A DNA stretch of 64,000 bases. Source: Advenella sp. S44. Lineage in GTDB: Bacteria; Pseudomonadota; Gammaproteobacteria; Burkholderiales; Burkholderiaceae_B. Under the pieces are notes generated by a model, which saw only the letters and a program-made list of their open reading frames with translations, was not told the origin of the DNA and did no database searches. Both the position numbers and the translations under genes were made by a program. Below, piece after piece: positions 45,115 to 63,524 of the stretch. The stretch lies in contig NZ_NEXS01000001.1 in assembly GCF_002810445.1 (NCBI RefSeq), forward strand, positions 310,001 through 374,000, written 5' to 3'. Position 1 is the first letter of the stretch, and every line of letters begins with the position of its first letter.

Positions 45115-47734
<2,620 letters not shown>

Positions 47735-47745
47735 GTGTCTGTCGG

Positions 47746-47807
47746 TTCTCATAATTAGTGAAAAATTCTCACAATTAATGAAAATCGATTCTCACAATTA
47801 GTGAAAA
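47746..47807 (+). repeat. Three iterons TTCTCA(C/T)AATTA(G/A)TGAAAA
   Basis: Copies begin at 47746, 47766 and 47789, all in the same orientation, spaced 20 and 23 bp. Each contains the short dyad TCAC-AATTA-GTGA or a variant. Closely packed same-direction ~20-bp sites starting a few bases from a TGT terminus is the pattern of TnsB-binding sites at a Tn7-type right end. Confidence 0.75.
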
Positions 47808-47830
47808 AATTTGTAGCTATACAGATCGCC

Positions 47831-47870
47831 AAACAGGCTCCGATGTTTTATCGGAGCCTGTTTTTATTTG
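47831..47870 (+). terminator. Strong intrinsic terminator after gyrB
   Basis: 14-bp stem (47831-47844 / 47850-47863; GGCTCCGAT/ATCGGAGCC core) with a 5-nt loop, followed by TTTTTATTT. Ends gyrB transcription and, because A-rich DNA precedes it, may also work from the other side. It lies inside the iteron side of the putative element, or is the native gyrB terminator if the true boundary is further right. Confidence 0.9.
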
Positions 47871-48217
47871 TGCGGGGGTTTGGGAGGTAGATCACCGACA
47901 GACGACTAGTTGGCATCGCTGCGGTCGGGAATGAGTGATAGATCATATGATGCTGAGAAACAAAAAGTATCAAATTAAATATTTAGTCGTAATTTTTTGT
48001 CTTGTGGATCTTGATTTCAGTCAATTTAAAAAATCTTGATTTCGTTCTTTAACTATATGATTAATAATAAGAAATTATAAAATATTCAATATATGCTATG
48101 AGTTAAATTAATTCATATTAACTATTGATTGTTTTTTGTTGATAGCTTCTAACTTGTTCTCCTGGCCTATATTCATTAGACTAAAAATATACAAAATTCA
48201 ATGGGACGGTTGGGTAC

Positions 48218-48481
48218 ATGGATGCGATCGAACTGAACTATCGATTGAAACGTGCGGGGCACACTCAGGTGAGTTTGGCACGTGAATTGGGTGTGACTCG
48301 CGGAGTCGTCAATGATGTCGTTCATGGCCGCAAATCGGCCTTTCGGGTAGCGTCCCGTGTCGCTGACGCCGTTGGAGTTGACGTTCACGTACTCTGGCCA
48401 GGTCGTTATCGGCAAGAATCGTTAGGCCACCATCCAATAAACAATCGATCTCAACAAAAGGAGAATATGCGACAGAAATAA
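48218..48481 (+). CDS. Ner/Nlp-like winged HTH regulator
   Basis: 87 aa. Resembles phage Mu Ner/SfsB-type DNA-binding proteins: MDAIELNYRLKRAGHTQVSLARELGVTRGVVNDVVHGRKSA (HTH about residues 15-38), then RVASRVADAVGVDVHVLWPGRY. Such proteins repress a transposase promoter from overlapping operators. Set between the element's end and tnsA, so it probably governs transposase expression. Preceded by very AT-rich DNA. Confidence 0.85.
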   Translation: MDAIELNYRLKRAGHTQVSLARELGVTRGVVNDVVHGRKSAFRVASRVADAVGVDVHVLWPGRYRQESLGHHPINNRSQQKENMRQK

Positions 48482-48510
48482 AAAAACCGAACAACTTTTA
48501 CGCTGCTCGG
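48475..48510 (-). terminator. Intrinsic terminator facing left, between ner and tnsA
   Basis: On the minus strand the 9-bp stem (48487-48495 / 48502-48510) pairs fully with G-U wobbles and is followed by TTTTTTTATTT; in the plus direction it has two mismatches and a short T-run. It therefore best terminates a leftward transcript arising upstream of tnsA. The 199 bp up to the tnsA start contains no other recognised gene. Confidence 0.6.
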
Positions 48511-48709
48511 CTTTTGTCTTCAAAGAATGAATATTACGTCTTCGCAAGCATAGTATTCCTTCTTTTGAGGGCTTAAGTCAAGCCGTTTTCCCCTAAAGCG
48601 TAACAATTTTTACCTTGCGCCCAAGCGCTGGGTGGGCACGTTCGCGCCTCTACCCATCATGCTGGGCATAGGTACAGGGGATTTTTTTGCCAAAAAAAGG
48701 AGTACTAAC

Positions 48710-49429
48710 GTGGTTCAAACCAACCCCAATCGATCTGCAAACACCCCACACATCGACCGTGCGCGTACGGTTATCACGCGATCAGGGGCCATCGTACGCG
48801 GTAAATTTTCCAGCAGAAAAAACCAGCGCATGATTCATTACGAAGGCCTCTTGGAGTTGTCGGCCTGCTATATGTTCGAAATGTCATCAAATATCATTGC
48901 GTATCGTGAACAACCGCTGAAAATTCAGTACGCAGACGGAAATCGGCTACGTCGATATATCCCTGATTTCAAAGTGACGCTCAAAACTGGTGAAATCGTA
49001 CTAGTAGAGATTAAACACTCGACGATTCTGGCTCGCATAGAGATACATCACAAATATCGTGAAATTTCAGCTCACATGCAACGGATAGATCAGGCGTACT
49101 GCATTGTCACGGACACTATTATTCGACAGGAACCGCGACTCAGCTCGTTGCGTTATGTCTATGGGCAACTATTGAGGCAAGTACCGACCCAAATTCAACT
49201 GGATACCATAGCATCCGATCTCGCCTCTCATTCCGCGTTCTTGAAGAACGCAAGCATCAAAACCGTTAACTCGCTGTTGAAGCCGTACGGTGTTTCCGCA
49301 TTTGACCTACTAGCAAGTGGTCATCTTGTTTGCGATTTAACACTACCAGTACAGGAATCTACTCAGACTTCCATTAACAAGGAGAACCGTCATGAATGGT
49401 TTCGAATTTCAGAAGAATTGTCGATTTGA
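48710..49429 (+). CDS. tnsA: TnsA-type endonuclease (Tn7-like transposase subunit A)
   Basis: 239 aa from GTG 48710, which has AAGGAG 7 nt upstream; the ATG at 48632 lacks one. Restriction-enzyme-like fold with the catalytic pattern: HYEGLLEL (E45/E49), YIPDF (D86) and VEIKHS (E100, K102), the spacing expected of Tn7 TnsA (E, D, Q/E-x-K). It makes the 5' cuts at the transposon ends so that the element moves by cut-and-paste. Overlaps tnsB by 38 bp, a tight coupling. Confidence 0.9.
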   Translation: MVQTNPNRSANTPHIDRARTVITRSGAIVRGKFSSRKNQRMIHYEGLLELSACYMFEMSSNIIAYREQPLKIQYADGNRLRRYIPDFKVTLKTGEIVLVEIKHSTILARIEIHHKYREISAHMQRIDQAYCIVTDTIIRQEPRLSSLRYVYGQLLRQVPTQIQLDTIASDLASHSAFLKNASIKTVNSLLKPYGVSAFDLLASGHLVCDLTLPVQESTQTSINKENRHEWFRISEELSI

Positions 49430-51374
49430 ACACGATGGAATGGCATATCTGGTCATGAGAATAAATCCTGATAAGAGCATCGTCGCAGAGCGCATCGGCG
49501 ATGGACAAGTTAGCTGCTGGGCTAGTGATGAGTTACTTAAAGCGTTTACTGAAGGCACTCTAAAGTTTCTCGATTCAGTCACAAACGTTGAATTAGGCTC
49601 GTATTATCAACGGCCAATAAATGATTTGAATGAAGATATTAAGAGTGAACTAGAGCGAAGGAAAATTTATGTAGTTGCTATTCGGAAAGCGGCTCCTAGC
49701 GTTAATACACCAGAGACGTTTATACCGATACTTAATGCTGTGGCTCAACGGATAGGAGATCCACGTCCTCCGTCATTCACAACGCTCTATAGGTGGGTAA
49801 GAAAGGCCGCACTACACGGTGAATTTAGGGCGTTGGTTCCTAGATATGATCGCCGAGGTCCACGGCACCGACGCCAGGATACAAGGATCACTGAGTTATT
49901 CGAAGAGGCAGCTCAAAGGGCATTTTCACAAAGCCCTCAAGCAACCATAGGAATGGTGATCGAAGTAGCCAGAACACTTATAACAGAAGAAAATGCGTTG
50001 CGCCCGGCTTCTGGTCTGTACAAGATTCCTAGTGATGCAACATGTTATCGAATGTTTGCGCAGTTAGATCAATATGAACAGACGGTTTTGCGTGAAGGAA
50101 AAAGAATCGCGATGCGAAAATTCAAATTGGCTGGCGCAGGAGCAGTAACGACACGCATACTGGAGCGAGTTGAAATTGATCACACACCTCTTGATCTATT
50201 TCTCATTGATGAAAAGACCTCGTTACCACTAGGTAGACCGACGCTGACTATAGTTCTAGATCACAATAGCCGCATGCCCCTAGGTTATCACCTGGGGTTT
50301 AACGCTCCGTCTACATCGGCTGTTCTAGCCGCGCTTCGCCACGCGATTCTTCCAAAAGAAAAACACAAATCGACCATTGGGCTAGAGATACATGGCGACT
50401 GGCCATGCTACGGAATTCCAGAGAGCATAGTGGTGGATAACGGACTGGAATTTCATGGAAAAGCATTAGAGCAGGTGGCATTTAATTTGGGAATTCAGAT
50501 TCAATTTTGCCCGAAAAAAGAGCCGCAGTTTAAAGGTGTCGTTGAACGCTATTTAAAAACCATCAACTATTCATTTGTACACATGCTTCCAGGGACATCG
50601 TATGCTAAGTATTACCAGCGAGGCGACTATGATCCACAGGAGCACGCGGTTTTGACACTCAGAGAGTTTCGAGAGATCTTCGAAAAATGGATAATTGATG
50701 TGTATGCGAAGAAAGTACATCGAGCTCTCAATACCACACCATTGGAAAAGTGGAATAGTAGTGCGAAATCCTACACTCCCAGGCTACCAAGATCCCTCAG
50801 TCAACTCACGACTGAGATGGTAATACCATGTACAAGGAGACTGCGAAACGACGGGATCATGCTACTTGGATTGCACTATAGTCATGACGACCTGGCCCCC
50901 ATTCTTCGCCGATTTGGGCCAGGCGTACAGGTAACAGTCACTTACGATCCCAATGATTTGGGCACAATTCGCGTTTTTGATCCAGATTCAAATGAAAAAT
51001 CTTATTTTGCGTATGCGAAAAACTTTGAATACGCTAACGGATTGACACTCGATCAGCACCGGCTTATCAGACGCGAGCTGATTCGCCAGGGGCAGTGTGT
51101 AAGCGATTCAATAGCGTTGTCTCAAGAGAAGCAGGCGATTCGTGACAAAGTCAAGGAACTTTCAATCAGTAAAAAACATTCTAAGCGGCGTTACGCTGCG
51201 CGACTTCGTGGGGCGCAAAAAGAAGCCACAGCGAATAAGGTCTCCAGGCCGCATCATCACAAAAATAGCAGGCAAACAGTCGATATATCGCACTTTCTGG
51301 GTAAACCTCTATCTGGTCTGCAGGAGCGATCTCCACTTTCTACCTTCAAAATGCGCAAACCGGGGATAGTATGA
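49392..51374 (+). CDS. tnsB: TnsB-type DDE transposase (Tn7-like)
   Basis: 660 aa. N-terminal DNA-binding helices, then an RNase H-fold core: D263 (EIDHTPLD), D349 (VVDNGLEF) and E385 (GVVERY), giving a DD35E triad, and a C-terminal Mu-type beta-barrel domain. Makes the 3' cuts and joins strands; its N-terminal domains should bind the iterons near gyrB. Start ATG 49392 has AAGGAG even though it lies inside tnsA. The last residues are basic. Full length by motif, so probably intact. Confidence 0.93.
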   Translation: MNGFEFQKNCRFEHDGMAYLVMRINPDKSIVAERIGDGQVSCWASDELLKAFTEGTLKFLDSVTNVELGSYYQRPINDLNEDIKSELERRKIYVVAIRKAAPSVNTPETFIPILNAVAQRIGDPRPPSFTTLYRWVRKAALHGEFRALVPRYDRRGPRHRRQDTRITELFEEAAQRAFSQSPQATIGMVIEVARTLITEENALRPASGLYKIPSDATCYRMFAQLDQYEQTVLREGKRIAMRKFKLAGAGAVTTRILERVEIDHTPLDLFLIDEKTSLPLGRPTLTIVLDHNSRMPLGYHLGFNAPSTSAVLAALRHAILPKEKHKSTIGLEIHGDWPCYGIPESIVVDNGLEFHGKALEQVAFNLGIQIQFCPKKEPQFKGVVERYLKTINYSFVHMLPGTSYAKYYQRGDYDPQEHAVLTLREFREIFEKWIIDVYAKKVHRALNTTPLEKWNSSAKSYTPRLPRSLSQLTTEMVIPCTRRLRNDGIMLLGLHYSHDDLAPILRRFGPGVQVTVTYDPNDLGTIRVFDPDSNEKSYFAYAKNFEYANGLTLDQHRLIRRELIRQGQCVSDSIALSQEKQAIRDKVKELSISKKHSKRRYAARLRGAQKEATANKVSRPHHHKNSRQTVDISHFLGKPLSGLQERSPLSTFKMRKPGIV

Positions 51375-51522
51375 TGGATCGGAAACAATTCTTTAACGCT
51401 CTGCAGGCCTTTGATACCGAGTATGTCAATTTTGCTGCTTTCGGCCATATCATCAAGGAAATGGAAATGGCGCTGGATCTTTATCGACAAACCGGACTGG
51501 TCAGAAATCTTCTGATAACCGG
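51371..51522 (+). pseudogene. tnsC: tnsC (AAA+ ATPase) truncated by the IS3 element
   Basis: Starts ATGATGG overlapping the tnsB stop and encodes about 50 residues: MMDRKQFFNALQAFDTEYVNFAAFGHIIKEM..QTGLVRNLLITG, which ends where the Walker A motif (GPSGSGKS) should follow. The IS begins at 51523, so the ATPase and target-selection functions are lost. The element cannot use its own TnsC. Confidence 0.85.
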
Positions 51523-51561
51523 TGTAAATACCCCATCTTTAATACACCACACACATAGAAT

Positions 51562-52377
51562 TTATAATGTTAATTTATAGTCAATGGGTGTCATGTCATT
51601 GAGTGAATCGTGCGGTCTTTCGGTGTTGTAAATCGTTGTCCAGTGTTCCGTGATGTGTTGAACTTGCTTCAACGACGTAAAAAGATATAAATCTAATACC
51701 TCTTGGCGGTACGTACGATTGAAGCGCTCAATATAGGCGTTTTGATAGGGGCAACCGGGCTGCGTATAATCAATATAAACGCCATGTTGATGTGCCCACT
51801 GAACGAACTCCGCGGAGGTGAACTCGGGGCCATTATCGACACGAACTCTACGTGGGTAGCCGTGCCAAGAGGCCAGCCCATCTAGGTAACGGGTGACACG
51901 AGCAGACGGCAAGCCCGTGCCAATATCGATTCCTAGCAACTCGCGATTGCAATCGTCAATCACATTAAATGTACGAAATCGCACGTTATTTTCTAAGCGG
52001 TCCGACATAAAATCCATCGACCAACACTGACCCGTACTTTTAGGTACGACGAGTGGTTCGGGTTGGCGAGCAGGCACGCGTTGCTTGCGCTTTGTCTTTA
52101 TGTTGAGTCGCAATGCATTATAAACACGCTGTACACGCTTATGATTCCAGCGGTAACCTAAAGCGCGTATGCGCTTAAAACACTTGGGGAACCCCCAACG
52201 TTGATGTCTTTCAACCAGCGTGTTTAGCACTGTAATTACCTCGCTATCATCACAACGTTTAGGCTGATAGTAAAACGCGGTGCGACTCATCCCCGTAATC
52301 ATGCAGCTTAAAACAACGCTGATGTCATGCTGTGCCTGTAGCGCTTTTGCCCAGTCTTTACGCGTCGCAACAGGCAC
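51562..52377 (-). CDS. IS3-family transposase OrfB (DDE domain)
   Basis: 271 aa. HTH_21 region then an rve core with WSMDFMSD, RVDNGPEF and QNAYIERFN (DD35E spacing), ending DSLNDMTPIDYKL. Expressed mainly as an OrfAB fusion by -1 slippage; GTG 52377 is the frame start only. Looks intact. Confidence 0.93.
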   Translation of the reverse strand: MPVATRKDWAKALQAQHDISVVLSCMITGMSRTAFYYQPKRCDDSEVITVLNTLVERHQRWGFPKCFKRIRALGYRWNHKRVQRVYNALRLNIKTKRKQRVPARQPEPLVVPKSTGQCWSMDFMSDRLENNVRFRTFNVIDDCNRELLGIDIGTGLPSARVTRYLDGLASWHGYPRRVRVDNGPEFTSAEFVQWAHQHGVYIDYTQPGCPYQNAYIERFNRTYRQEVLDLYLFTSLKQVQHITEHWTTIYNTERPHDSLNDMTPIDYKLTL

Positions 52378-52637
52378 TACAGCTTTTTTATGATTTCTTC
52401 CTGCAACTGAGACTTCAAACTTAAATCAGCATACATCTGCTTTAAGCGACGATTCTCCTCCTCGAGCTCTTTGAGTCGTTTTACGTCGGAGAGCTCCATG
52501 CCGCCATATTTGGCTCGCCATTTATAAAATGTGGAGTTACCTACATGATGCTTGCGGCACAGCTCTTTAATCGGTATCCCAGCTTCCGCTTCTTTCAACA
52601 TCGCCACAATTTGGCTTTCTGTCATCCGTTTGCTCAT
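52377..52637 (-). CDS. IS3-family transposase OrfA (HTH, leucine zipper)
   Basis: 86 aa: MTESQIVAMLKEAEAGIPIKELCRKHHVGNSTFYKWR is the transposase_8 HTH and GMELSDVKRLKELEEENRRLKQM the coiled coil, IS407/IS51-like. ATAAAAAAGCTG at its end carries the A AAA AAG heptamer for the -1 shift into OrfB. Confidence 0.93.
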   Translation of the reverse strand: MSKRMTESQIVAMLKEAEAGIPIKELCRKHHVGNSTFYKWRAKYGGMELSDVKRLKELEEENRRLKQMYADLSLKSQLQEEIIKKL

Positions 52638-52709
52638 CGTAAAAATCCTTTTTTCTTAGTGTAAGAAAAATTCTACGCTTCAGCTGTATTATTTTAGGGG
52701 ATAGTTACA

Positions 52710-53028
52710 AAAGATTTGTATATGATGTTAATCAAATTGATGTGACTAATTTATCACCGGCATCTCATTGCATCGACGCCTATAAATTTACGGGGGACAT
52801 CTGTATTACTTCCATTAGACTGCGTACTTGGTACAACAAGCTTAATGGATTCCGCTTGCCCCCGATTATGATGTAGAACCGGCGTAGGCAGCATGACCTC
52901 ATCCAGTACATCTTTGTTGATAAAGGCTGGCGATACCATCCTGCAATGGGCATTCGCATCAGATCATCACCAATATCCTCACCCGCTGAGCGCAAGCCAC
53001 TGTAGGCAGCCGTACCACATTACGCCCC
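52710..53028. other. 319-bp stretch right of the IS
   Basis: No recognised gene. A 61-aa minus-strand frame (52754-52939; NKDVLDEVMLPTPVLHH.., ending DAMRCR) looks protein-like but has no known family and is probably debris. No copies of the gyrB-side iterons were seen, so the other transposon end is missing or further away. Confidence 0.35.
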
Positions 53029-53667
53029 TCATCTATTCGTATAATTTCGCCTATATACCTCTTCCCCCATAGCCTGCACCTGCTGCGCGACCTGTGCCCT
53101 GAAGGGCGCCAATAAACGGTCGAAACTTTGCTCAGGTTCAAGCAGCGACAGACTACGCGCAATCGCTTCAATGGTGGACACTGCAGCAGGCTGACTCGTC
53201 TTGCGTATCCGGTATTCCGACGGCATGCCAGGGGGCAGGCTCAGCCGAGGCAGCGTGTCCAGCACCGGGTTCGCGCCCACTATTTTGCGTGCCTTGCGCC
53301 AGGTGCCGTCCGGCACGATGAGCAGCGACGCGGCAGGCTCACCGCAAGAGGAAGTGGAAACGGCAGCAACCTGCGCGCTGCTTGCTTCCCGCTCGGGAAA
53401 GAGCAGTAACACGCGGCCCGATAAGGCAACGATGTCATCCAATTGCGGAAAATGCTCGCCCACCAGCAACTGTGCATTAAGCAGCCCCATTACCGCCAGG
53501 CGGGCGGTATTCAGGGGATGGTTCGCTTCATCCGGGTGTTGTAGCACCAGTACCTGCGTGCGGTTAGGAATGCGACTTATATACGCACACAGGCAATGCG
53601 ATGCAGGCCGCTGGCAATGCTCGCAACGAGGACGGGGCAGCTTTTTCAACTCAGACATGTGCGCCAT
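53029..53667 (-). CDS. tapT: tRNA-uridine aminocarboxypropyltransferase (DTW domain)
   Basis: 212 aa. Cys-rich N-terminus (CEHCQRPASHCLC), the DTW-type catalytic motif VPDGTWRKARKI, and STIEAIARSL near the end match the TapT/YfiP family, which makes acp3U47 in tRNA from SAM. Start M24 or M27 of the open frame (53667 or 53658); no clear ribosome site separates them. Divergent from rlmF with 217 bp between. Confidence 0.88.
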   Translation of the reverse strand: MAHMSELKKLPRPRCEHCQRPASHCLCAYISRIPNRTQVLVLQHPDEANHPLNTARLAVMGLLNAQLLVGEHFPQLDDIVALSGRVLLLFPEREASSAQVAAVSTSSCGEPAASLLIVPDGTWRKARKIVGANPVLDTLPRLSLPPGMPSEYRIRKTSQPAAVSTIEAIARSLSLLEPEQSFDRLLAPFRAQVAQQVQAMGEEVYRRNYTNR

Positions 53668-53884
53668 TATACAAAGCCTGACGCACTGACGAGCGGCTGC
53701 ACTGGCCGCCTGCCCAAGCCCTTTCGGCTTGCACAACGGGCGTCATTTTCGTGACGCTGAGCTCAACCTTATCGCCGGCACTGCGGGCGAGCCCTGATTG
53801 AATTTCAAGCCATTTTTAACCACGTTTCCCGAACTCATTGATATCATGGCCAGATCGTCCACTTCAAAGTAGCCCCAGAACCCA

Positions 53885-54850
53885 ATGCCCACCCTATCCT
53901 CGTTCCATCCCCGCAATCGCCATCAGGGCCGCTACGATTTCCCAGCGTTGATCAAAGGCACGCCGGAACTCGGCGCCTTCGTCCGGGCCAATCCCTATGG
54001 CGACCAAAGCATTGATTTTGCCAATCGCGCCGCGGTTCAGGCGCTTAACGCCGCCCTGCTCAAAACCTGGTACGGTGTGACTCACTGGGATATCCCGGAA
54101 GGCTATTTATGCCCTCCCATTCCGGGCCGGGGCGATTATGTGCACCATCTGGCCGACCTGCTTGCAGAACGCAATGCAGGCGTCATACCCCGTGGTCCGG
54201 CGGTGCATGTGCTGGACATCGGCACAGACGCCAGCGCGATCTATCCGATAATCGGCCATTTCGACTATGGATGGCGTTTCACGGGATCGGACATCGATCC
54301 GGGTGCCGTCAAATCAGCACAAGCGATTATCCAGGCCAATCCACGCATCAGGGGCGCAGCCGAAGTACGCCGGCAGAAATCCCCAGCGCATATATTCAAA
54401 GGCCTGGTCGGCGTCAATGATCGCTTTGACCTGACACTGTGCAATCCCCCCTTCTATAGCTCACCGGAAGAGGCGACAAACAATTCGGAACGCAAATGGC
54501 GCGGTCTGGGCCGAGCAGGAGCCCGGCACAAGCGCTCATTACTTAATTTTGGTGGTCGCGATACCGAGCTGTGGTGCGAAGGTGGCGAGGTCCTGTTCAT
54601 CAACCGCATGGCTGAAGAAAGCACCACCGTCCAGAAACAGGTGCTTTGGTTCTCCACCCTGGTCTCGAAAGAATCAAACCTGTCCGAGGTCTATCGCAGT
54701 ATCAAAAACGCCGGCGCACTCGATGTGCGCACAGTCGACATGGCGCAAGGCCAGAAAAAAAGCCGCTTCGTTGCCTGGACCTTCTTGAACCGTGGGGATC
54801 AAGAAGCATGGCACAACAGACGCAAAGCGAATGCTATACGCAACGGCTAG
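53885..54850 (+). CDS. rlmF: 23S rRNA (adenine(1618)-N6)-methyltransferase RlmF
   Basis: 321 aa. HPRNRHQGRYDFPALIKGTPELGAFV start and the methyltransferase motifs VLDIGTDASAIYPIIG (SAM loop) and CNPPFYSSPEEA (NPPF active site) identify RlmF. Modifies A1618 of 23S rRNA using SAM. Confidence 0.95.
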   Translation: MPTLSSFHPRNRHQGRYDFPALIKGTPELGAFVRANPYGDQSIDFANRAAVQALNAALLKTWYGVTHWDIPEGYLCPPIPGRGDYVHHLADLLAERNAGVIPRGPAVHVLDIGTDASAIYPIIGHFDYGWRFTGSDIDPGAVKSAQAIIQANPRIRGAAEVRRQKSPAHIFKGLVGVNDRFDLTLCNPPFYSSPEEATNNSERKWRGLGRAGARHKRSLLNFGGRDTELWCEGGEVLFINRMAEESTTVQKQVLWFSTLVSKESNLSEVYRSIKNAGALDVRTVDMAQGQKKSRFVAWTFLNRGDQEAWHNRRKANAIRNG

Positions 54851-54911
54851 CCGCAGCTGACACTGGTAACGACATCATTATTCATCGACCCGCAAATCCA
54901 GACGCTGCGAA

Positions 54912-55103
54912 TTGTATTCAGGGGATATGCCCTGCGCACGGGCAGCAAAAACGCTGAATGAGCCAGCTCTCCGACGGCACACTATTGCCGTCACGCCCAT
55001 TTCGATGGTTTGGGCGGCGCATTCTGATCGGGAGCCAACGCCCGAATGGCTGCGTCAACAGGTCGAACCTATCCTGGCGCAGATAGAGGGGGTTACGCCG
55101 TAA
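54912..55103 (+). pseudogene. Possible LysR C-terminal remnant
   Basis: 63-aa frame whose second half (RHTIAVTPISMVWAAHSDREPTPEWLRQQVEPILAQI) resembles the last strand and helix of a LysR effector domain; no HTH half exists upstream. Weak; it could also be chance. Confidence 0.3.
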
Positions 55104-55125
55104 CATAGACTGCTCGCTAATATTG

Positions 55126-55635
55126 TCAAACTGCGTAAGGCGTGGCGATGTTCCGATACTGTCCTTTGAAATACAGCAACGGCTGTAAGCAAGCGCCCTC
55201 CTGCAGCTTCAACGCTTTCACTTGCCCAATAACAATCAAGTGATCGCCGGCGGCGTATTCAGCGTATATTTCGCAATCAAGCCAGTGAAGGCTGCCGGCA
55301 AGGATCGGGCTACCCAGGGGCGACGTCTGCCACTGGACGTCGCGCCACTTGTCCGAGCCGCTCTGGGCAAACTGATTGGAAATCGCCACTTGCTCGTCGG
55401 ACAGAATATTGACAACGAAGCGACCTGCCTGGCGAATTTTGGGATAACTGGCCGAACGTGTCATCACGTTGAACGACACCAGCGGCGGGTCCATAGACAC
55501 GCTATGGAACGACTGGCAGGTAAAGCCAATGGGCTCGTCTTCGAAGTGCGATGTGATCACCGTGATGCCGGAAGCGTAGTGCCCGAGCGCTTCGCGAAAA
55601 CGCAAAGGCTCAATCGCAGTAGTGGAAAGTGACAT
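55126..55635 (-). CDS. Flavin reductase family protein
   Basis: 169 aa from ATG 55635 (MSLSTTAIEPLRFR). HpaC/DIM6-NTAB split-barrel fold: HYASGITVITSHF, GFTCQSFHSVSMDPPLVSFNV, and HWLDCEIYAEYAAGDHLIVIGQV. Supplies reduced FMN/FAD from NAD(P)H. It follows mesD and mesX on the same strand, and oxygen-dependent MesX chemistry would need a reductant, so partnership is plausible. An upstream extension of the frame is not supported. Confidence 0.87.
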   Translation of the reverse strand: MSLSTTAIEPLRFREALGHYASGITVITSHFEDEPIGFTCQSFHSVSMDPPLVSFNVMTRSASYPKIRQAGRFVVNILSDEQVAISNQFAQSGSDKWRDVQWQTSPLGSPILAGSLHWLDCEIYAEYAAGDHLIVIGQVKALKLQEGACLQPLLYFKGQYRNIATPYAV

Positions 55636-55767
55636 GATGCAATTGAAATACTGGATGTAGCTTGAAAGTGCTAAAGAAAGGCAGTCCGGGCGGGTTGCCA
55701 GACGCGCGTCCTTAGCCTGTGCCTGGTTGTCACTAGCGGTTCGCAACGACCAGGCCCCGACAGAAAA

Positions 55768-56808
55768 TCAGTTTGCCAGTTCCCTGCGAACGATGTCCGC
55801 TCCGGCACTCAACGCATTCAGCTTGCCTCTTGCAACGCTACGAGACAATGGTGCCATGCCGCAATTGGTGCACGGATAGAGCTTATCGGCATCAACGAAC
55901 TGCAGTGCTTTTCGCAGCGTATCGGCCACTTCATCGGGTGTTTCAATGGTGTTTGTGGCCACATCAATGGCGCCCACCATCACTTTTTTACCGCGAATCA
56001 GTTCGATCAGATCCATGGGAACGTGCGAGTTTTGGCATTCCAGCGAAACGATGTCGATACTGGACTTCTGCAACTTGGGGAACGCTTCTTCATACTGCCG
56101 CCACTCGGATCCCAGCGTCTTTTTCCAATCCGTATTCGCTTTGATGCCGTAGCCATAGCAAATATGAACCGCGGTTTCACACTTTAGTCCTTCAATGGCT
56201 CTTTCCAGCGTAGCGACGCCCCAATCATTCACCTCATCAAAGAACACATTGAACGCGGGTTCGTCAAATTGGATGATATCGACACCCGCAGCCTCCAGCT
56301 CTTTGGCTTCCTGATTAAGAATCTTGGCAAATTCCCAAGCCAGTTTTTCGCGACTTTGGTAATGGGCATCATACAGAGTATCGATCATCGTCATGGGGCC
56401 CGGTAAGGCCCATTTGATCGGTTGATTAGTCTGTTGTCGCAAAAACCGGGCGTCGTCAACAAACACGGGCTTGCGCCGGGCGACGGCACCCACGACCGTT
56501 GGCACGCTCGCATCATAGCGAGCACGAATTCTAACGGTCTTGCGGTTCTCGAAATCCACACCTTCCAGGTGTTCAATGAATGTTGTCACGAAATGCTGGC
56601 GCGTTTGTTCACCATCGCTAACGATATCAATCCCCGCGTGCTGTTGTTCCTGTAAAGAAAGACGCAACGCATCTTGCTTGCCCTCGATCAATCCCTCATC
56701 CTGCAGTTTCCAGGGGGACCAGAGTTTTTCGGGTTCGGCAAGCCAGGCGGGTTTAGGCAGGCTGCCAGCCGTTGATGTGGGTAATAATTTTTTCACAATA
56801 GTAGTCAT
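55768..56808 (-). CDS. mesD: Core methionine synthase MesD
   Basis: 346 aa, matching only the C-terminal catalytic half of MetE; the N-terminal MetE domain is absent. Zinc ligands are visible: H215-I-C217 (AVHICYGY), E257 (VSLEC) and C316 (PCTNCGMAP). MesD-type enzymes methylate homocysteine without folate and, from work on Acinetobacter recalled here, require MesX and oxygen. The mesX homologue is the next gene upstream, which strongly supports MesD over MesA-C. Confidence 0.85.
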   Translation of the reverse strand: MTTIVKKLLPTSTAGSLPKPAWLAEPEKLWSPWKLQDEGLIEGKQDALRLSLQEQQHAGIDIVSDGEQTRQHFVTTFIEHLEGVDFENRKTVRIRARYDASVPTVVGAVARRKPVFVDDARFLRQQTNQPIKWALPGPMTMIDTLYDAHYQSREKLAWEFAKILNQEAKELEAAGVDIIQFDEPAFNVFFDEVNDWGVATLERAIEGLKCETAVHICYGYGIKANTDWKKTLGSEWRQYEEAFPKLQKSSIDIVSLECQNSHVPMDLIELIRGKKVMVGAIDVATNTIETPDEVADTLRKALQFVDADKLYPCTNCGMAPLSRSVARGKLNALSAGADIVRRELAN

Positions 56809-56823
56809 GGTGTGTTTGAGTTT

Positions 56824-57807
56824 TTAAAGATGGGAATGCGCGGACCATTGCTCAAGAATCGCCCGGTATGGTTTGATGAAATGCTCCTCGGCATACCTTC
56901 CCTGCTCGGCAGCCAGGCGGCTACGTTCCTCCCGATCATAAACAATCCGGGTTAGCGAATAATCCTGGTGCTTCAAACTCGGCTGATAAGATTTGCCTGC
57001 GGTAGAATTTGCGTTGTAAATCTCTGGCCGATAAATTTTCTGGAAGGTGTCCATCGTGCTGATGGTGCTAATAAGCTCAAGGTCCGTATAATCACGCAGC
57101 AAATCGCCGGAAAAATAAAAGGCCAACGGCGCCGCACTATTGGCAGGCATGAAATAGCGGGCCTTCATCCCCATTTTTTTGAAGTACTCGTCAGTCAATG
57201 AATATTCATCTTGGTGGTATTCCACGCCCAACACGGGGTGCTGGTTTTCAGAACGATGATAGGTCTTGCTGCTCGACACGCTTAGGCATATAACTGGCGC
57301 TTTGGCGAAATTATCCTTGTAAGTCTTTGAGTTTACAAAGCACTTGAACAACTTGCCATGCAATTGTCCAAAATCCTCGGGCGCACCAAATTCGGGCTGA
57401 TGCTTGGCGTATTCCGGCAGCAACACACTAAAGTCATAATCTCGCACGTAAGAAGAAAAATTGTTTCCTACCATGCCCTCAATGCATTCGTTGGTTTTTC
57501 GATCAACTACGCTTGTCTTTAATATTTCAATCACAGGCAGGTCGCGATCATTGCTTTGCCCTTCAAAGCGCATTTCAACTGAGATAATGTCAAGGTTGAC
57601 GCTATAGCGATCGCCAGTGGGGTTGTCCCAATGCGCCAGGGCATTAAAACGATTGTCAATCATCTTAAGGGTATTGCGCAGATTCTCTTGCCGGCTCTCG
57701 CCTCTGGCGAGATTGGCAAAGTTGGTAGTGATGCGCGTATTGTCTGAAGGACGATAGTCTTCATCGAAACAAGTGCTCTTAATGGCAAATGTAAACTCTG
57801 TACTCAT
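56824..57807 (-). CDS. mesX: MesX (DUF1852) partner of MesD
   Basis: 327 aa, DUF1852 protein: STCFDEDYRPSDNTRITTNFANLARGESRQENLRNTL at the start and QDYSLTRIVYDREERSRLAAEQGRYAEEHFIKPYRAIL at the end are characteristic. Thought to provide the methyl donor for MesD in an oxygen-dependent reaction. First gene of the operon mesX-mesD-flavin reductase; a MetR-type box lies 139 bp upstream of its start. Confidence 0.85.
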   Translation of the reverse strand: MSTEFTFAIKSTCFDEDYRPSDNTRITTNFANLARGESRQENLRNTLKMIDNRFNALAHWDNPTGDRYSVNLDIISVEMRFEGQSNDRDLPVIEILKTSVVDRKTNECIEGMVGNNFSSYVRDYDFSVLLPEYAKHQPEFGAPEDFGQLHGKLFKCFVNSKTYKDNFAKAPVICLSVSSSKTYHRSENQHPVLGVEYHQDEYSLTDEYFKKMGMKARYFMPANSAAPLAFYFSGDLLRDYTDLELISTISTMDTFQKIYRPEIYNANSTAGKSYQPSLKHQDYSLTRIVYDREERSRLAAEQGRYAEEHFIKPYRAILEQWSAHSHL

Positions 57808-57945
57808 TATGGTGCTGCCTTAATTCCCAGGATAAAACCCACATTTATCTATTTAACGCAGCTCAAATTTTCTTTTTCAATTTCAGCAATCTAGACATTT
57901 GTGATGCAAAGGAGGCAGTCTATATTGCATTAGTCATATTTAAAG

Positions 57946-57958
57946 TGAATTAAATTCA
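57946..57958. promoter_or_regulatory. MetR-type box upstream of mesX
   Basis: TGAATTAAATTCA is an exact TGAA-N5-TTCA match to the MetR consensus and nearly a perfect dyad. MetR activates methionine synthase genes in response to homocysteine. Assignment by motif and gene context. Confidence 0.6.
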
Positions 57959-58471
57959 TTCTCTTGTTGGCTTCATTCATACAATGGCGAGCGCGCCGAT
58001 CGGCACGTCAATGTGCCCCTCTCCTATTCGCTATCTTTTCATTGCCCCACGGCGCACTCATTGTGCAAGAAGGTGTAATGACTCAGTTTTTTAAGCTTAA
58101 CTTGCCTTGCCAATATCAATGCGACAGGCAGGGCCAAAGGCCAGAGGAATGCCGGTGCAGTGCAGGTAATCTCCCGCCGCAAGGGCTGCCGCTTCGATTC
58201 TGGCCCGGGTACCAGCTTAAATTTCCTAGTGTTCAAGGCTCGGTTCTGCCCCATAAATGGGGATGAGTACTCACCAAACACGCTGCTTTAGAAGCCATGT
58301 ATGACTATGCGACCAGGGTTTTGTCGTTGATTTCAATAGCCAAATATAGAAATTGTCGCTCCACGGGTTACCACCTCCCTTACAATAGCGCATGAATTCC
58401 TTTCTTTCGCTCCTCTTTCCGTTTCACCCCCGCATTCAGCACATTTGGTCCCTCCCTCTATCGGCGGTTGC
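57959..58471. other. Intergenic region between mesX promoter and RIO kinase
   Basis: About 510 bp. The minus strand around 58107-58230 reads as a short protein-like tail (GDYLHCTGIPLAFGPACRIDIG) ending in a stop, preceded by a stop codon, so probably a decayed C-terminus. Nothing else recognised; no riboswitch could be identified. Confidence 0.35.
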
Positions 58472-59329
58472 ATGAAAGTGCCCAAGCGGCTTATGCCGCT
58501 TCTTGAAGAAGGCCTTATCGACGAAGTGCTCAGCCAGCTCATGAGCGGCAAAGAAGCCACCGTGTATGTCGTACGCAGCGGCGACGCCACCCGTTGCGCA
58601 AAAGTGTACAAAGACGCCAAACAGCGCAGCTTCCGGCAGGCTGCGTCGTACCGGGACGGCCGCAAGGTACAAAATTCCAGGCAGGCCCGCGCCATGGAAA
58701 AAGGCAGCCGCTACGGTCGCCAGATGCAGGAAGAAGTCTGGCAGAACGCCGAAGTAAATGCATTATTTCAACTGGCCAATGCCGGCGTGCGCGTGCCTCA
58801 GCCCTATATATGCACCGACGGCGTGTTGCTGATGGAACTGGTCGTTGATGCAGAGGGCGATGTCGCGCCGCGACTGAACGACGTGGACCTGACCCAGGAA
58901 CGCGCCCTGCAGCTGCACGCCATGCTGCTCAACCAGGTGGTACGCATGCTTTGCGCAGGCGTCATACACGGCGATCTGTCCGAATACAATATCCTGCTTG
59001 CCGCCGATGGCCCGGTCATTATTGATCTTCCCCAAGCCGTTGACGCTGCCGCGAACACAGAAGCGTGCGCGATGCTGGTTCGCGACGTAAACAACCTCGC
59101 GGCGTATTTCGGGCGCTTTGCTCCAGAGGTTCTGTCGGCCAGCTATGGCAAGGAAATCTGGGCACTTTATGAAGCAGGCGAACTTAACGTGGATGTCGAA
59201 CTGACCGGCTATGTCGAGCCCGACGCCAGCCCCGTCGATATGGACAGCCTGCTGCTGGAGCTGGAAGATAGTCGCCTGGAAGAAGAGGCGCGGATGCGCC
59301 GCGAGCAGCAATTGACCAGCACCCAGTAA
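58472..59329 (+). CDS. RIO1-family protein kinase-like protein
   Basis: 285 aa. GKEATVYVVRSGD is the ATP-binding loop, CAKVYKD carries the Lys, HGDLSEYNILL (about residue 166-176) is the catalytic loop and IDLPQAVD replaces the DFG motif, all as in bacterial RIO kinases of the PA4780 group. Start ATG 58472 (MKVPKRLMPLL) is preferred to the TTG at 58445. The C-terminus is acidic. The substrate is unknown. Confidence 0.88.
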   Translation: MKVPKRLMPLLEEGLIDEVLSQLMSGKEATVYVVRSGDATRCAKVYKDAKQRSFRQAASYRDGRKVQNSRQARAMEKGSRYGRQMQEEVWQNAEVNALFQLANAGVRVPQPYICTDGVLLMELVVDAEGDVAPRLNDVDLTQERALQLHAMLLNQVVRMLCAGVIHGDLSEYNILLAADGPVIIDLPQAVDAAANTEACAMLVRDVNNLAAYFGRFAPEVLSASYGKEIWALYEAGELNVDVELTGYVEPDASPVDMDSLLLELEDSRLEEEARMRREQQLTSTQ

Positions 59330-59427
59330 GTAGACTGCGAAACGACAAACCACATACTCATGGATGATTTCCTTCTCGTTTTTTAGAGTGGGCGTCCGCT
59401 GCGCGGGGAAAAGCCTGGAAATTTAAC

Positions 59428-59685
59428 TCATTTTCTTTTGTGTTTAGCTTCGTCTTCTCGCTCCATGCGATCCAACGAGTGCTCAGTTTCATTTTCGCTG
59501 AGAGATTGTTGTTGCATCATGCATTGATCAAAATTTGCTGATCCAGGCTGGATACCAAGATTTGCGCATTGTTTGCGATATCCCTCTGCTTCCATTTCGT
59601 CTAAGGCCTGGCATCCGCTCAGAGCGCCCATAACAATCAAGCCTACAAATAAAGTCGTTTTTGTGGGAAGGAGCCGATGAATCAT
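59428..59685 (-). CDS. Small predicted lipoprotein
   Basis: 85 aa. Signal peptide LFVGLIVMG then lipobox ALSGC (Cys25), so membrane-anchored after lipidation. The mature part has two further Cys and a very polar, charged C-terminus (REDEAKHKRK). Family not recognised; similar small lipoproteins are common in Burkholderiales. Confidence 0.75.
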   Translation of the reverse strand: MIHRLLPTKTTLFVGLIVMGALSGCQALDEMEAEGYRKQCANLGIQPGSANFDQCMMQQQSLSENETEHSLDRMEREDEAKHKRK

Positions 59686-59954
59686 TTCTTATTCCTTTGA
59701 AAATTGGTAACTGGTATTACTTCATTATTGGCGACTATGGCAATAGATGAGCAATATATGATCATCTTACTAAGATAAATTTGTTCAGGCCTGACATTTA
59801 TCTTTACTTACATCTTTTCTGAATACAGCGCAAGGGTCATGTCGTTTTTAGAAATAGATATATGGCACACTTTGGCAAGGTTTCATTTGGCCCGTGTAAG
59901 CTTTAGGGTCATGTTATTGGCCAAATCTCTCTAAAGTCATATAAAGGGTTTGAA

Positions 59955-60302
59955 ATGAATAAGCGTTTAAAAAAAGTCAGTTCCGCAATTGTGCTTGGAT
60001 TTGCCTTTAGTGTTCCCTTTATCCAAGGATGCGCGTCACAGTCAGATGAAACACGTGTATCGGCCGCAGTCGATGATAAACAATTTATGGCCTGGTTCGA
60101 CAATTTAACGAGTCAAATAAAGGCTGATCCAACCTATAAACGGATACCGATTGAAACGCAAGCGCAGCAAAATGAATTTTTGGGCTGGTTACATGCGGCA
60201 TACCGCAAACAGATCACGAAGAATGAACTGACCCATCGAATTAACAGCAAATACCCAAATCATGAATCTGAAGCCGCGTTCATAGCTTCAAAACTTCCCT
60301 AG
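59955..60302 (+). CDS. Small predicted lipoprotein
   Basis: 115 aa. Hydrophobic signal IVLGFAFSVPF and lipobox FIQGC (Cys26). Mature domain alpha-helical by sequence, with no recognised family. A GGGGTTCTGG-AA-CCAGAATTCC hairpin about 20 bp past the stop may be its terminator, with a weak T-run. Confidence 0.72.
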   Translation: MNKRLKKVSSAIVLGFAFSVPFIQGCASQSDETRVSAAVDDKQFMAWFDNLTSQIKADPTYKRIPIETQAQQNEFLGWLHAAYRKQITKNELTHRINSKYPNHESEAAFIASKLP

Positions 60303-60377
60303 ACTTTGCCAAAGCCATGATCGCCGGGGTTCTGGAACCAGAATTCCGGCTATTTGCGTCCCCTGCCATGCCACTGT

Positions 60378-60815
60378 TTATTTTTCCCGTGTCAGAATCC
60401 CAACATCCTCGTTGATGTTCAGTGGTTTGTCCAATACGTTTAATTTGTCCTCATCCACAGATTGCAGGGTGTCTTTTGATCTGACACCAAAGAGCCAATC
60501 GTCATCCTTTTTATTCTTTGAAATCAGGCGTATAAGGGTATGTTTGCCTTTTATTTCTGTCGTCCAGGCACCATGTTCGGGCTTCTCTACAGCCCCTCCC
60601 GTCAGTAAATATTTACCTTGATTGTCCAGTTTCAGACGAATGTCGTCACCGCCGAATGTGCCGGGTGGAAACGTTGCCTCGGGTTTGGCACTAGTAGTCG
60701 TTATTGCCCTGCTTCCAGCCTGCGTTGACTGAGTTCCAACGGTTTGGGCTAATCCTTGAAACCCCAATAGGCTTAGAGAGCATAAACAAATGGTCTTAAA
60801 GAGACGGTATTTCAT
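60378..60815 (-). CDS. Secreted hypothetical protein
   Basis: 145 aa. Signal peptide of about 23 residues (LCSLSLLGFQGLAQ), then a Thr/Ser-rich linker and a small beta-rich domain (GDDIRLKLDNQGKYLLTGG..HGAWTTEIKGKHTLIRLI) that looks like a lipocalin-type or copper-resistance NlpE-like barrel edge. Function unknown; periplasmic by prediction. Confidence 0.7.
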   Translation of the reverse strand: MKYRLFKTICLCSLSLLGFQGLAQTVGTQSTQAGSRAITTTSAKPEATFPPGTFGGDDIRLKLDNQGKYLLTGGAVEKPEHGAWTTEIKGKHTLIRLISKNKKDDDWLFGVRSKDTLQSVDEDKLNVLDKPLNINEDVGILTREK

Positions 60816-61190
60816 AGATATAGCACTCCTTAGCTGGACGCAATTGTAATAATGGGCAGTTGCGTGCTATTGGTCGTATCGGCAACATTCAGCAATAGCA
60901 TGACAAACGAAATCAACTCTATGGTATCGACATCATCCTGGTCTATCCAGTACCAGTGTCCTGTGTGATACCGCAGCAAACGCATCGGAAGGGGCCGAAT
61001 TTTCAGCATGGATACGCACGTTGTTGAGCAAAGGATCGACCCGATTGAGTCCGTTGGTCATTTCCCCTTTTAAAACCGGGCCTGATTGTTTTTAAGTTGG
61101 TCAATAGTGCTGTAGATTTGATTCAACAGAAAATATGACATATATACTGCCTATTAAACTTGGAATAAAAACGGGATGGGATAGAAAAGA
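60816..61190. other. 375-bp intergenic stretch
   Basis: No gene recognised. The last 60 bases are AT-rich and precede the LprI-like pseudogene, with a weak GGGATGGG ribosome-site region. Confidence 0.35.
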
Positions 61191-61658
61191 ATGCAGCGCT
61201 TTTTGAGATTGAAGATATATATTTCAACGTTGACACTGTTGGCTCCAGGTGCGCTACTCGCGCAGAAAGTTGGCGTGCCCATAACCTCAGTGGAGTATAA
61301 AGCAAATAATAAAGCGCAGCTAATGGACTGCGCTAATGCGATGACGCAATCAGATATCAACCAGTGCGCCGCAGCCGACTACAAAAAGGCGGATTGACAG
61401 CTGAACAAGACTTACAAGGAAATATTTGGCAACGCAGAAGCAGCCCAGCAGACTGCGTTGAAAGCGGCGCAGAATGCCTGAATAAAATTTCGTGACACAG
61501 ATTGTGCGTTTCAGACATCGGCCGTAGAAGGCGGCTCCATGTACGCAGCTGCACTTGCCAGTTGTCTTGAGGATAAAACATCCGCTCGTACCAAAGAGCT
61601 CGCGGCATTGCTGCACTGTAAGGCAGTCGATACGACTTGCGTCCTTTCCGGCAATTGA
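61191..61658 (+). pseudogene. LprI/DUF1311-like gene with two in-frame TGA codons
   Basis: Reads in one frame for 155 codons: signal peptide ISTLTLLAPGALLAQ, DCANAMTQSDINQCAAADYKKAD, then TGA, QLNKTYKEIFGNAEAAQQTALKAAQNA, then TGA at the Trp position of the usual AWIKFRD motif, then FRDTDCAF..GGSMYAAALASCLEDKTSARTKEL. Everything else in the frame is intact. LprI-type proteins inhibit lysozyme. The second TGA replacing Trp is a single TGG-to-TGA change. Recent inactivation is most likely. Confidence 0.85.
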
Positions 61659-61670
61659 GGGTCGATTGAT

Positions 61671-62096
61671 ATGAGATTGGGTACTGAAGGCGTGAACTTA
61701 TCGGCGTTGTACGAGGCAGAGGACGGTTTTTTTAATCAGACACAGGTTCGGGTGTTTTCCTGGTTTGATAAGATACTGGTGCCTCTGTTGGCGCTTGTAG
61801 AGGTTTTGGCGTTATATTTCATACAAGATTATGTCATTTCTCATCTGAAAAAATGGATTCTGTCAGTCATGACCCTTTTCGGCGGCCTTGCTTTTTATTG
61901 GTTTTGGGTGCTCGACGGACGGCTGTATTGGTCGCCAAAGCAAATGCCTATGTTCAAATCGGCTGAGGAACGAGCCTTGCTTCGTACGGAAAGAGCCATT
62001 TATGAACGCCTGCGTGTGGTCGAGCCGCAACAGATTGTTTTTGATCCCGTTTTAGACGGGAAGACATGCTTAACGGTCCGAATATTGTTAATTTAG
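61671..62096 (+). CDS. Hypothetical membrane protein
   Basis: 141 aa. Two hydrophobic segments at about residues 35-54 and 61-82 (ILVPLLALVEVLALYFIQDYV; LSVMTLFGGLAFYWFWVL), with hydrophilic ends. Follows the LprI-like pseudogene by 12 bp and the receptor-like channel comes 82 bp later. No family recognised. Confidence 0.65.
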   Translation: MRLGTEGVNLSALYEAEDGFFNQTQVRVFSWFDKILVPLLALVEVLALYFIQDYVISHLKKWILSVMTLFGGLAFYWFWVLDGRLYWSPKQMPMFKSAEERALLRTERAIYERLRVVEPQQIVFDPVLDGKTCLTVRILLI

Positions 62097-62178
62097 TGAA
62101 CGAGTTTGCAATGGACGACTTACTTAAAACCTATTTTCGATAAATGTCGGGATTTTCTTTTTAAGGAATTTCAACGGT

Positions 62179-63288
62179 TTGTTTAGATTTATATATCCAA
62201 TCATTACACGTTTTATTTTCGCCGCCGGCTTTATATTCGTCTCGGTACTGTTCTCATCGCCAACCCTGGCGCAAGCTGCGCCTACTGCTAGCAAGACGGT
62301 AAAGGTTGGAATATACGAGAGCGCGCCCTTTGTCGTACGGGAAAATGGGCAATATTCCGGTATGGCAATAGAGCTTTGGGAAGAGCTTGAGAGAAAAGTG
62401 GGGCTGTCGTCTACCTATCAAAGCTATCCCTCATTCCATAAATTGATTGAAGCGGTTCAACGCGGTGAAATCGACGCTGCCGTATCGAATCTGACGATTA
62501 CCAGACAACGAGCACAATCCATTGCCTTTACCCAGCCCTGGTATGACTCGGGGCTGAGAATCATGACTAGGAATAAAGGATCGGGGTCGTTCCAAACCGT
62601 ATTTGATGGTCTGATAGATAGTGGACACTTAGCAACCTTTGTCTGGCTGTTGATTCTTGCGCTCTTTGCAACCGCAATTATTACGCTTATAGATCGCAAG
62701 CTCGATAGCGAATTTCCACGAAGGTGGCGAGAAGGTCTGGCGGATAACTTTTTTCATACCGTATCGATCCTGACCACTGGGAAAACCACTCATAAGAATT
62801 TATTTGGCTGGGTTGGCCGAATATGGTCAGCAATCTGGATGGTGATCGGTGTAGGCATTATTGCCTACGTGACCTCCTCTATCACCAGTGTTATGACAAC
62901 CACCTCACTGACCAATCAAATTCATTCTTTGTCGGATCTGTCAGGTAAAACGGTTGGAGTGCTGGGGGGCAGCGTGGCCGAGGACTATATTCAGGAGCTG
63001 AACATTCAAACGCGCAGTTATACAGACATGGACGCATCGGTGCAGGGATTGATGTCAGAGGAGGTCGATGCGCTTGTAGGCGATGCGCCGGTACTGGAAT
63101 ACTTCACCCATTCGCATCCAACACAGCCGGTTCGTGTTGTCGGTAACGTGTTTCACCCAGATAAGTATGGGTTTGGTTTTGCCCTGCAAAGCGATTTATT
63201 ACGGCCAGTCACACTTGAACTGTTAGGGTTGCGCGAGCAAGGGCGCATTCGAGATCTGCGGGTGAAGTATTTCGGTAATACTCGTTAA
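62179..63288 (+). CDS. Prokaryotic ionotropic-glutamate-receptor-like channel
   Basis: 369 aa. Signal peptide about 1-31; ligand lobe S1 (KVGIYESAPFVVRENGQYSGMAIELWEE, 41-135); TM1 150-172; pore loop 188-207; TM2 211-235; ligand lobe S2 from about 250 to the end. The order lobe-TM-pore-TM-lobe is that of GluR0-type channels. The pore reads LTTGKTTHKN, not the potassium filter TVGYG. Start TTG 62179 with AAGGAA upstream. May conduct ions on binding an amino acid in the periplasm. Confidence 0.83.
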   Translation: MFRFIYPIITRFIFAAGFIFVSVLFSSPTLAQAAPTASKTVKVGIYESAPFVVRENGQYSGMAIELWEELERKVGLSSTYQSYPSFHKLIEAVQRGEIDAAVSNLTITRQRAQSIAFTQPWYDSGLRIMTRNKGSGSFQTVFDGLIDSGHLATFVWLLILALFATAIITLIDRKLDSEFPRRWREGLADNFFHTVSILTTGKTTHKNLFGWVGRIWSAIWMVIGVGIIAYVTSSITSVMTTTSLTNQIHSLSDLSGKTVGVLGGSVAEDYIQELNIQTRSYTDMDASVQGLMSEEVDALVGDAPVLEYFTHSHPTQPVRVVGNVFHPDKYGFGFALQSDLLRPVTLELLGLREQGRIRDLRVKYFGNTR

Positions 63289-63524
63289 CCGGCCTGTTAT
63301 GTATCGGCCGACTTGTGATATCTGGTATTAGAGGCCGTTGGCCTAGAAACCGATTGGCCATCTAGACTTTGGGCAGCAGCGTGCTGACCCAAGTGTTGGT
63401 ACTACCCGCTAAGTGCCGGTTGGGTACACTCAACAGACCTAAATGGCTTTACGAGCATTGGGCTTTGTTGTCGCTACACTGAGCGTAATCAGAATACTTG
63501 TCATAGTAGACAGCGTTGATAGTG
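63289..63524. other. Intergenic stretch without recognised features
   Basis: 236 bp between the convergent channel gene and the MFS gene; no strong terminator seen. Confidence 0.35.

Follow-up and report, generated by a model that had tools for sequence, protein, structure and literature searches.

A decayed Tn7-like transposon behind gyrB in Advenella sp. S44 and its probable homing through a TniQ-family selector

The stretch of 64,000 nucleotides of Advenella sp. S44 analyzed in this work (hereafter, the window) carries the remnant of a Tn7-like transposon whose right end lies at the 3' end of gyrB. On the basis of sequence comparison, we are rather confident that this remnant is a decayed member of a group of elements homing to that site by means of a protein-guided selector, TniQ2. 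The preliminary description of the window had recognized the remnant and had supposed that a recognition protein aimed at gyrB may exist in intact relatives. Both ideas gained support: right-end repeats, tnsA, tnsB, and a tnsC fragment are found at gyrB, and a candidate for the recognition protein, TniQ2, was found in three other genomes (G006, G001, and G236; G, L, and C are our labels for genomes, loci, and contigs).

The host gene gyrB, whose 3' end is the docking site, occupies positions 45284-47734 of the forward strand, on which all the genes and end features described in this paragraph lie; its start codon was set by comparison with relatives (the open reading frame (ORF) tool places it at 45155), and its stop codon is the TAG at 47732-47734. 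After a flank of five bases, GTGTC (47735-47739), the transposon right end extends over 47740-47808 and comprises the terminus TGTCGG and three direct TnsB-site-like repeats, TTCTCACAATTARTGAAAA, of about 19 bp, at 47746, 47766, and 47789 (offsets 0, 20, and 43); this repeat has three matches in the window, against 0.01 expected in shuffled sequences. The end had been predicted to fall 2-6 bp past the gyrB stop codon, and it is located 5 bp past it. Downstream, tnsA (48632-49429; PF08722 match, E 3e-10) has a homologue in G006 that begins at the equivalent of position 48710, and the E/D/ExK residues, which we take to be catalytic, can be read in its sequence. The tnsB gene (49392-51374) encodes a transposase of 660 amino acids with a Mu-transpos_C match, an rve match below its cut-off, and a profile match to the TnsB of Tn6677 (E 8e-95); since D263, D349, and E385 are invariant in the four TnsBs aligned, its motif is DD35E. 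The two genes overlap, and an ATGA at 51371-51374 couples tnsB to a 5' fragment of tnsC (51371-51522), whose 51 codons are 98% identical to residues 1-51 of the G006 TnsC. The overlap, the linked tnsC start, and the DD35E motif were thus all seen as they had been described.

Two members of the same genus, which belongs to the Burkholderiales, harbor a complete set of genes behind gyrB. In Advenella sp. FME57 (G006) and Advenella incenata DSM 23814 (G001), these are tnsA, tnsB, tnsC (TniB/AAA), tniQ1, and tniQ2, and the same five genes are found at gyrB in G236, from another genus. TnsC is intact in these relatives (PF05621 match), and their TnsB is 89% (G006) and about 47% (G001) identical to that of the window. 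TniQ1 is 479 (G006) and 440 (G001) amino acids long and TniQ2 600 and 588, respectively; the latter is composed of a TniQ core and a C-terminal extension with a MerR/HTH_17-type helix-turn-helix (HTH). Ends with repeats like those of the window (type A) are found at gyrB in seven of the ten examined genomes of the genus (G000, G001, G002, G003, G006, G007, and G008), the diverged ends of G002 being counted with up to four mismatches. In G005 and G009, the end at gyrB is of type C, and in G004 none is visible. The possibility that G005 and G009 represent clean empty sites was rejected because type-C end repeats, AATAGTTGGCCA, follow their gyrB.

The connection between TniQ2 and gyrB extends beyond the genus. 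A profile built from two TniQ2 sequences matched 21 of the 268 genomes of the family searched, gyrB being located in all 21, and in 10 of them (G001, G006, G236, G131, G113, G168, G185, G196, G109, and G233) the match lies on the strand of gyrB and 4.9-14.6 kb downstream of this gene; in the other 11 (G007, G092, G096, G122, G140, G141, G160, G187, G191, G205, and G242), it does not. If the genomes are divided, as we did after seeing the matches, into those whose match reaches the C-terminal columns and those with an N-terminal-only match, 10 of 13 and 0 of 8, respectively, have it at gyrB (Fisher p 0.001). At the level of the order, a profile of 11 sequences matched 60 of 399 genomes, gyrB again being located in all of them. 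With a cut of E <= 1e-50, chosen after the data had been seen, 14 of the 16 genomes with any such match (14 of 18 places) have it on the strand of gyrB and 4-27 kb downstream (G059, G537, G513, G423, G388, G598, G643, G496, G315, G293, G633, G381, G466, and G421); G059 is itself part of the profile, and without it the count is 13 of 15. Among the 44 genomes with weaker matches, only two, G022 (2.6 kb) and G451 (36 kb), have them downstream of gyrB on its strand. Lastly, in a tree of 44 TniQ rows, three of which are labelled "elsewhere" with no gyrB located, the gyrB label requires 4 changes versus 15.1 after shuffling (a value this low was reached in 0 of 500 shuffles), and therefore the insertion location tracks the TniQ phylogeny. 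HTH_17 or MerR-type helices recur at about residues 490-550 in the scanned TniQs of types A, B, and C.

Two other targeting systems have to be weighed against these data. The elements might be guided by RNA, as CRISPR-associated transposons (CASTs), with a guide matching gyrB and TniQ1 or TniQ2 as adaptor. Of the proteins with solved structures, the TnsB and TnsC of Tn6677, an I-F3 element, are the closest to those studied here, the TnsB of the window matches the PADLOC model of V-K CAST TnsB (E 1e-42), and type-A elements have a dual TniQ like some CASTs, according to the excerpt of PMC10293859 consulted. We nevertheless regard RNA guidance as very improbable: no Cas family appeared in the scans of TnsC, TniQ, and cargo proteins with Pfam (10 proteins) or PADLOC (six G006 cargo proteins), the cargo scan being non-exhaustive and guide RNAs lying outside the search, and only one TniQ, a long one, is encoded in several gyrB elements. 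A similarly low probability is assigned to the idea that the small TniQ1, and not TniQ2, selects gyrB. All three complete type-A elements encode TniQ1, and a second TniQ-like ORF occurs in G315, G421, and G633. Against this stands the finding of one TniQ per operon in seven gyrB elements; in five of them (G131, G113, G059, G168, and G109), it aligns with TniQ2 over most of its length; in the other two (G185 and G196), the alignment covers much of TniQ2 or parts thereof. Moreover, it is the C-terminal coverage of TniQ2 that tracks the gyrB location. The long TniQ2 is thus the selector that we prefer.

As for the insertion site, the terminus motif TGT[ACT][GA] is found no more than 22 bp from the gyrB stop codon in 30 of the 33 rows of our comparison carrying an element or an end. 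From the position of the subsequent repeats, the end can be placed 2 to about 12 bp downstream of the stop codon in most rows read, and in the elements read it is the right end that faces gyrB, so that insertion in one orientation is observed repeatedly. At least three types of end sequences use this site: type A, TTCTCACAATTARTGAAAA; type B, TTTAGATTT/TCTAGA; and type C, AGTTGGCCA, with further variants too. Where the proteins can be aligned, type-A TnsBs share 33-34% identity with those of type B and 24-28% with those of type C. The 5-bp target duplication, proposed earlier as a check, is exact in two 12.8-kb elements belonging to different families, both outside the family of the window genome: that of G513, with tnsABC and one TniQ of 662 amino acids, is flanked by TAAGC, whose TAA is the gyrB stop codon, and that of G388 by TGCTT. 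The flanks of G598 read AGAAT, with one base missing on one side. These three are the convincing left ends from a search by inverted terminus at 14 loci (two had no usable terminus, and at least two, G236 and G381, were searched from a wrong TGT), those of G388 and G598 being picked by their flanks among two and three candidates, respectively. Within Advenella, the G006 gyrB junction reads TAGGTGT|TGT, and ACA|GGTGT|TGT is found at one tandem junction each in G000 and G001; the duplication is therefore GGTGT.

It might be argued that the elements favor the replication-origin region (dnaA-dnaN-gyrB) or replication features rather than the sequence of gyrB. ORFs that we take to be dnaA-like and dnaN-like lie directly upstream of gyrB in the window, and in several one-contig genomes gyrB is 2.6-5.6 kb from the start of the record. 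Such a preference would scatter the insertions, and for this reason an insertion point fixed a few bp past the stop codon, with the right end towards gyrB, makes it scarcely credible. Least credible of all is a single ancient insertion inherited vertically and decaying with no ongoing site-specific insertion: six genomes (G003, G005, G009, G025, G160, and G242) do show only end-like sequence with no tns genes in the stretch read, but the number of end types and the distance between their TnsBs, the tandem copies, and the lack of an end motif in G004, G019, G187, G191, and G205 oppose it, and the exact duplications on two elements from different families already contradict it.

Protein-guided homing to gyrB probably proceeds as follows. 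The TnsD-like TniQ2 would bind the last codons of gyrB, whose C-terminal end is conserved as protein (F..LMG..VEPRR.FIE..A......N[LI]D in 28 sequences), and would recruit a short AAA+ TnsC. By cut-and-paste, TnsAB would then insert the element at a point 2 to about 12 bp downstream of the stop codon, producing the 5-bp duplication and placing the right end and its array of TnsB sites beside gyrB. Transcription of gyrB would thereafter finish at a terminator in the right end, the native terminator having been displaced. As the part of PMC10293859 consulted leads us to suppose, TniQ1 may act in a second pathway.

Several findings weigh against this reading. The AlphaFold model of TniQ2 (mean predicted local distance difference test score, pLDDT, 36.6) is too poor for searching. 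The gyrB label does not form one clade in the TniQ tree, where G496 nests among off-gyrB rows; assemblies are fragmented, and a match on another contig is no proof of another site. The terminus motif is absent from G185 and G196 and degenerate in G003, and it also occurs in four of the nine other rows (G025, G048, G160, and G242), three of which (G025, G160, and G242) we read as remnant ends. A clean 5-bp duplication is absent at G002, G007, G008, and another G001 junction, and in the window itself the gyrB-side flank, GGTGTC, is one base longer than the GGTGT at the left end, i.e., it has one extra C. Repeats at gyrB with no tnsAB nearby, which the preliminary description had held to speak against a gyrB-homing element, occur in G002, G003, G007, and G008; those of G007 and G008 are right-end/left-end pairs, that is, short or decayed elements. 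Homologues at other sites, which had been regarded in the same manner, also exist: strong ones lie off gyrB in G623 (twice), in G542, and on contig C1 of G293, the last being the best match of that genome, and where the neighbors could be named they are other conserved genes. In a class-wide sample, finally, 14 of 369 genomes matched, and since only G315, from the same order, fell below 1e-50, the gyrB-aimed system looks restricted to Burkholderiales; the flanks fetched for 4 of the 12 matched genomes from other orders gave no gyrB match.

Among the copies off gyrB, one in G623 lies behind a class II tRNA-synthetase gene of the D/K/N type, which we take to be lysS; ORFs 85-100% alike are found in the G542 neighborhood, the synthetase ORF not being called in G542. 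The other G623 copy and that on contig C1 of G293 lie behind SelR-domain genes, presumably msrB. These genes (loci L199, L200, and L202) are candidates for further attachment sites. The possibility that parE is the site of the off-gyrB homologues was also considered and rejected, the gyrB protein having no match in any of the 45 loci from L199 on. Overall, we lean, with moderate confidence, towards the idea that the 3' end of gyrB is an order-wide homing site of Tn7-type elements in Burkholderiales, shared by three or more lineages with differing TnsB sites and related long TniQs, whose selectivity would reside in the C-terminal extension of TniQ and would have been switched in sister branches (to the class II tRNA-synthetase and SelR/msrB genes), and whose right ends would bring their own terminator.

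How do these elements compare with known ones? Tn7 inserts behind the essential glmS gene, whose coding end is read by TnsD, as stated in the part of PMC2918618 consulted. The elements described here share with Tn7 the TnsA/TnsB/TnsC proteins, a selector of the TniQ family, TGT...ACA ends with arrays of TnsB sites, and a 5-bp duplication, and by analogy the targeting of gyrB by TniQ2 probably follows the logic of TnsD and glmS. They differ in lying behind gyrB and not glmS, in their distance of 2 to about 12 bp from the stop codon of the target gene, in the length of TnsC (about 310-380 amino acids in the gyrB elements, versus 523 residues in the Tn7 TnsC structures), and in the position of tniQ2, which sits in the operon after tnsC or tniQ1, unlike in Tn7. 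A further comparison concerns parE, a paralogue of gyrB. Since Tn7017, an I-F3 relative, homes to parE via TniQ/TnsD (excerpts of PMC11406308 and PMC10293859), a gyrB/parE connection between it and the present elements is plausible. The likeness consists of the dual TniQ (type A), the related TnsB and TnsC (to those of Tn6677), and, probably, protein-guided homing; the differences are the site and the absence of Cas genes among the proteins scanned, the selector itself lying outside the comparison. Tn6022, which uses TnsF and is inserted in comM (excerpt of PMC10293859), belongs likewise to the Tn7 group and has a fixed chromosomal site, which is comM and not the region behind gyrB; TnsF was not searched for here.

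Homing of Tn7-like elements behind conserved genes is therefore known, and the view that no gyrB-targeting family had been described agrees with the literature searched, supplements excluded. The titles and abstract openings among the gyrase-related matches listed suggest no gyrB attachment site; the word gyrB is absent from the main text of PMC10293859, PMC8649781, and PMC11406308 and from the part consulted of PMC10702557, on the Tn7-like elements of Burkholderia, and in PMC12452197 gyrB is a marker gene. The gyrB gene would thus be an addition to the short list of essential conserved attachment genes for Tn7-like elements. Related selectors seem to read different genes (gyrB and possibly the tRNA-synthetase gene and msrB), and such sets could allow the protein-DNA code of TnsD-type proteins to be worked out by comparison and domain swaps. 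Homing to gyrB would also explain the island hotspot beside this gene in Burkholderiales and suggests how an element may land almost on a stop codon with no harm to the gene; those who use gyrB flanks for the typing or engineering of these bacteria should bear in mind that islands may be present there.

A further question concerns the terminator. In the window, a terminator-like hairpin of 15 pairs (47831-47863, forward strand; dG -23.2 kcal/mol) lies in the right end and precedes a run of T residues; terminator-like sites in this region of the window are not above chance (two found versus 0.9 expected, standard deviation 1.2). Among the 33 end-bearing rows, 25 have a hairpin of -12.5 kcal/mol or stronger with T residues that is not plainly made of end repeats, a raw count with no shuffled control, in which the G022 hairpin may be made of end repeats. 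No hairpin was found in G007 and G643, only weak ones in G423, G315, G466, G451, and G233, and that of G002 consists of end repeats. A hairpin, presumably the native terminator, is likewise seen in four of the five rows with no end motif (G004, G019, G187, and G205), the exception being G191. The argument for a terminator carried by the element depends on sequences away from gyrB: a similar hairpin is present in the second right ends of G000, G008, and G001, and in G388 a different hairpin, probably the displaced native terminator, directly follows the left end. The right-end hairpins may terminate gyrB transcripts.

Regarding the extent and decay of the window copy, position 52709 had been taken as the end of the transposon; it is instead the end of an insertion sequence (IS) of the IS3 family, 1187 bp long (51523-52709, reverse strand; ORFs 52377-52637 and 51562-52377), that cuts tnsC. 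The right-end repeat has 12 matches in the window genome (up to three mismatches; none with the reversed control), 10 of which are grouped at two places of contig C16. The second group (C16:428985-429189) represents the left end, with four candidate TnsB sites (-, -, +, -); it finishes in CGACA at C16:429116 and is followed by GGTGT and by another right end, TGTGCG. The element hence spans C16:357740-429116 (71.4 kb), its left end lying about 55 kb past the edge of the window. An identical copy of the IS (1187 bp, 100%) is present in direct orientation at C16:426847, and none of the four flanks of the two copies shows a target duplication. The 64.1-kb segment between them makes up most of the element span and is not transposon core; it begins in the window (52710-64000, no strand assigned), extends to C16:426846, and includes a DTW-domain gene, an RNA methyltransferase gene, and many other ORFs. 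No tniQ/tnsD was found in the window genome with the TniQ2 profile, nor in the fetched stretch by tblastn with TniQ1 and TniQ2. An IS-linked rearrangement probably took out most of tnsC and both tniQ genes, and because of this loss the copy is probably not autonomous and may be immobile.

The base composition of the element had been described as AT-rich and unlike that of its neighbors. The first part holds, the GC content being 43-46% at 48-53 kb versus 51-58% at 42-47 and 53-57 kb; since low GC recurs at 57-58 and 59-63 kb, it is not unique to the element. Between the right end and tnsA lies an Xre-type HTH gene of 87 codons (48218-48481, forward strand), kept at the same place in G006 (93%) and partly in G236 (62%, residues 1-64). 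Another TnsA of the Tn7 type (PF08722 and PF08721), distinct from that of the element, is encoded on contig C2 of the window genome (L016, 9904-11575); after it comes an apparently truncated TnsB (by eye, with no Pfam match), and a ParA-like gene (by eye) lies beside them.

Other observations concern the relatives. A scan of viral contigs gave no relative. A tblastn search of plasmids with TnsB (at least 5000 records) yielded, among the matches listed, only identities below 60%; 22 of the listed records cover at least 80% of the query, the top one at 32% identity. A scan of genome contigs found two loci, both of Advenella. The right-end/left-end pairs at gyrB in G007 (L063, 3381 to about 4533) and G008 (L064, 3714 to about 5842), of about 1.15 and 2.1 kb, have no recognized tns genes, as if non-autonomous elements shared the gyrB site. 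Further clusters of type-A ends are present on contig C1 of A. incenata at 33-70 kb (L060-L062), and the cargo of the G006 element (L058, 11453-19345) includes the candidate defence genes PDC-M53A/B and a type IIG restriction-modification gene.

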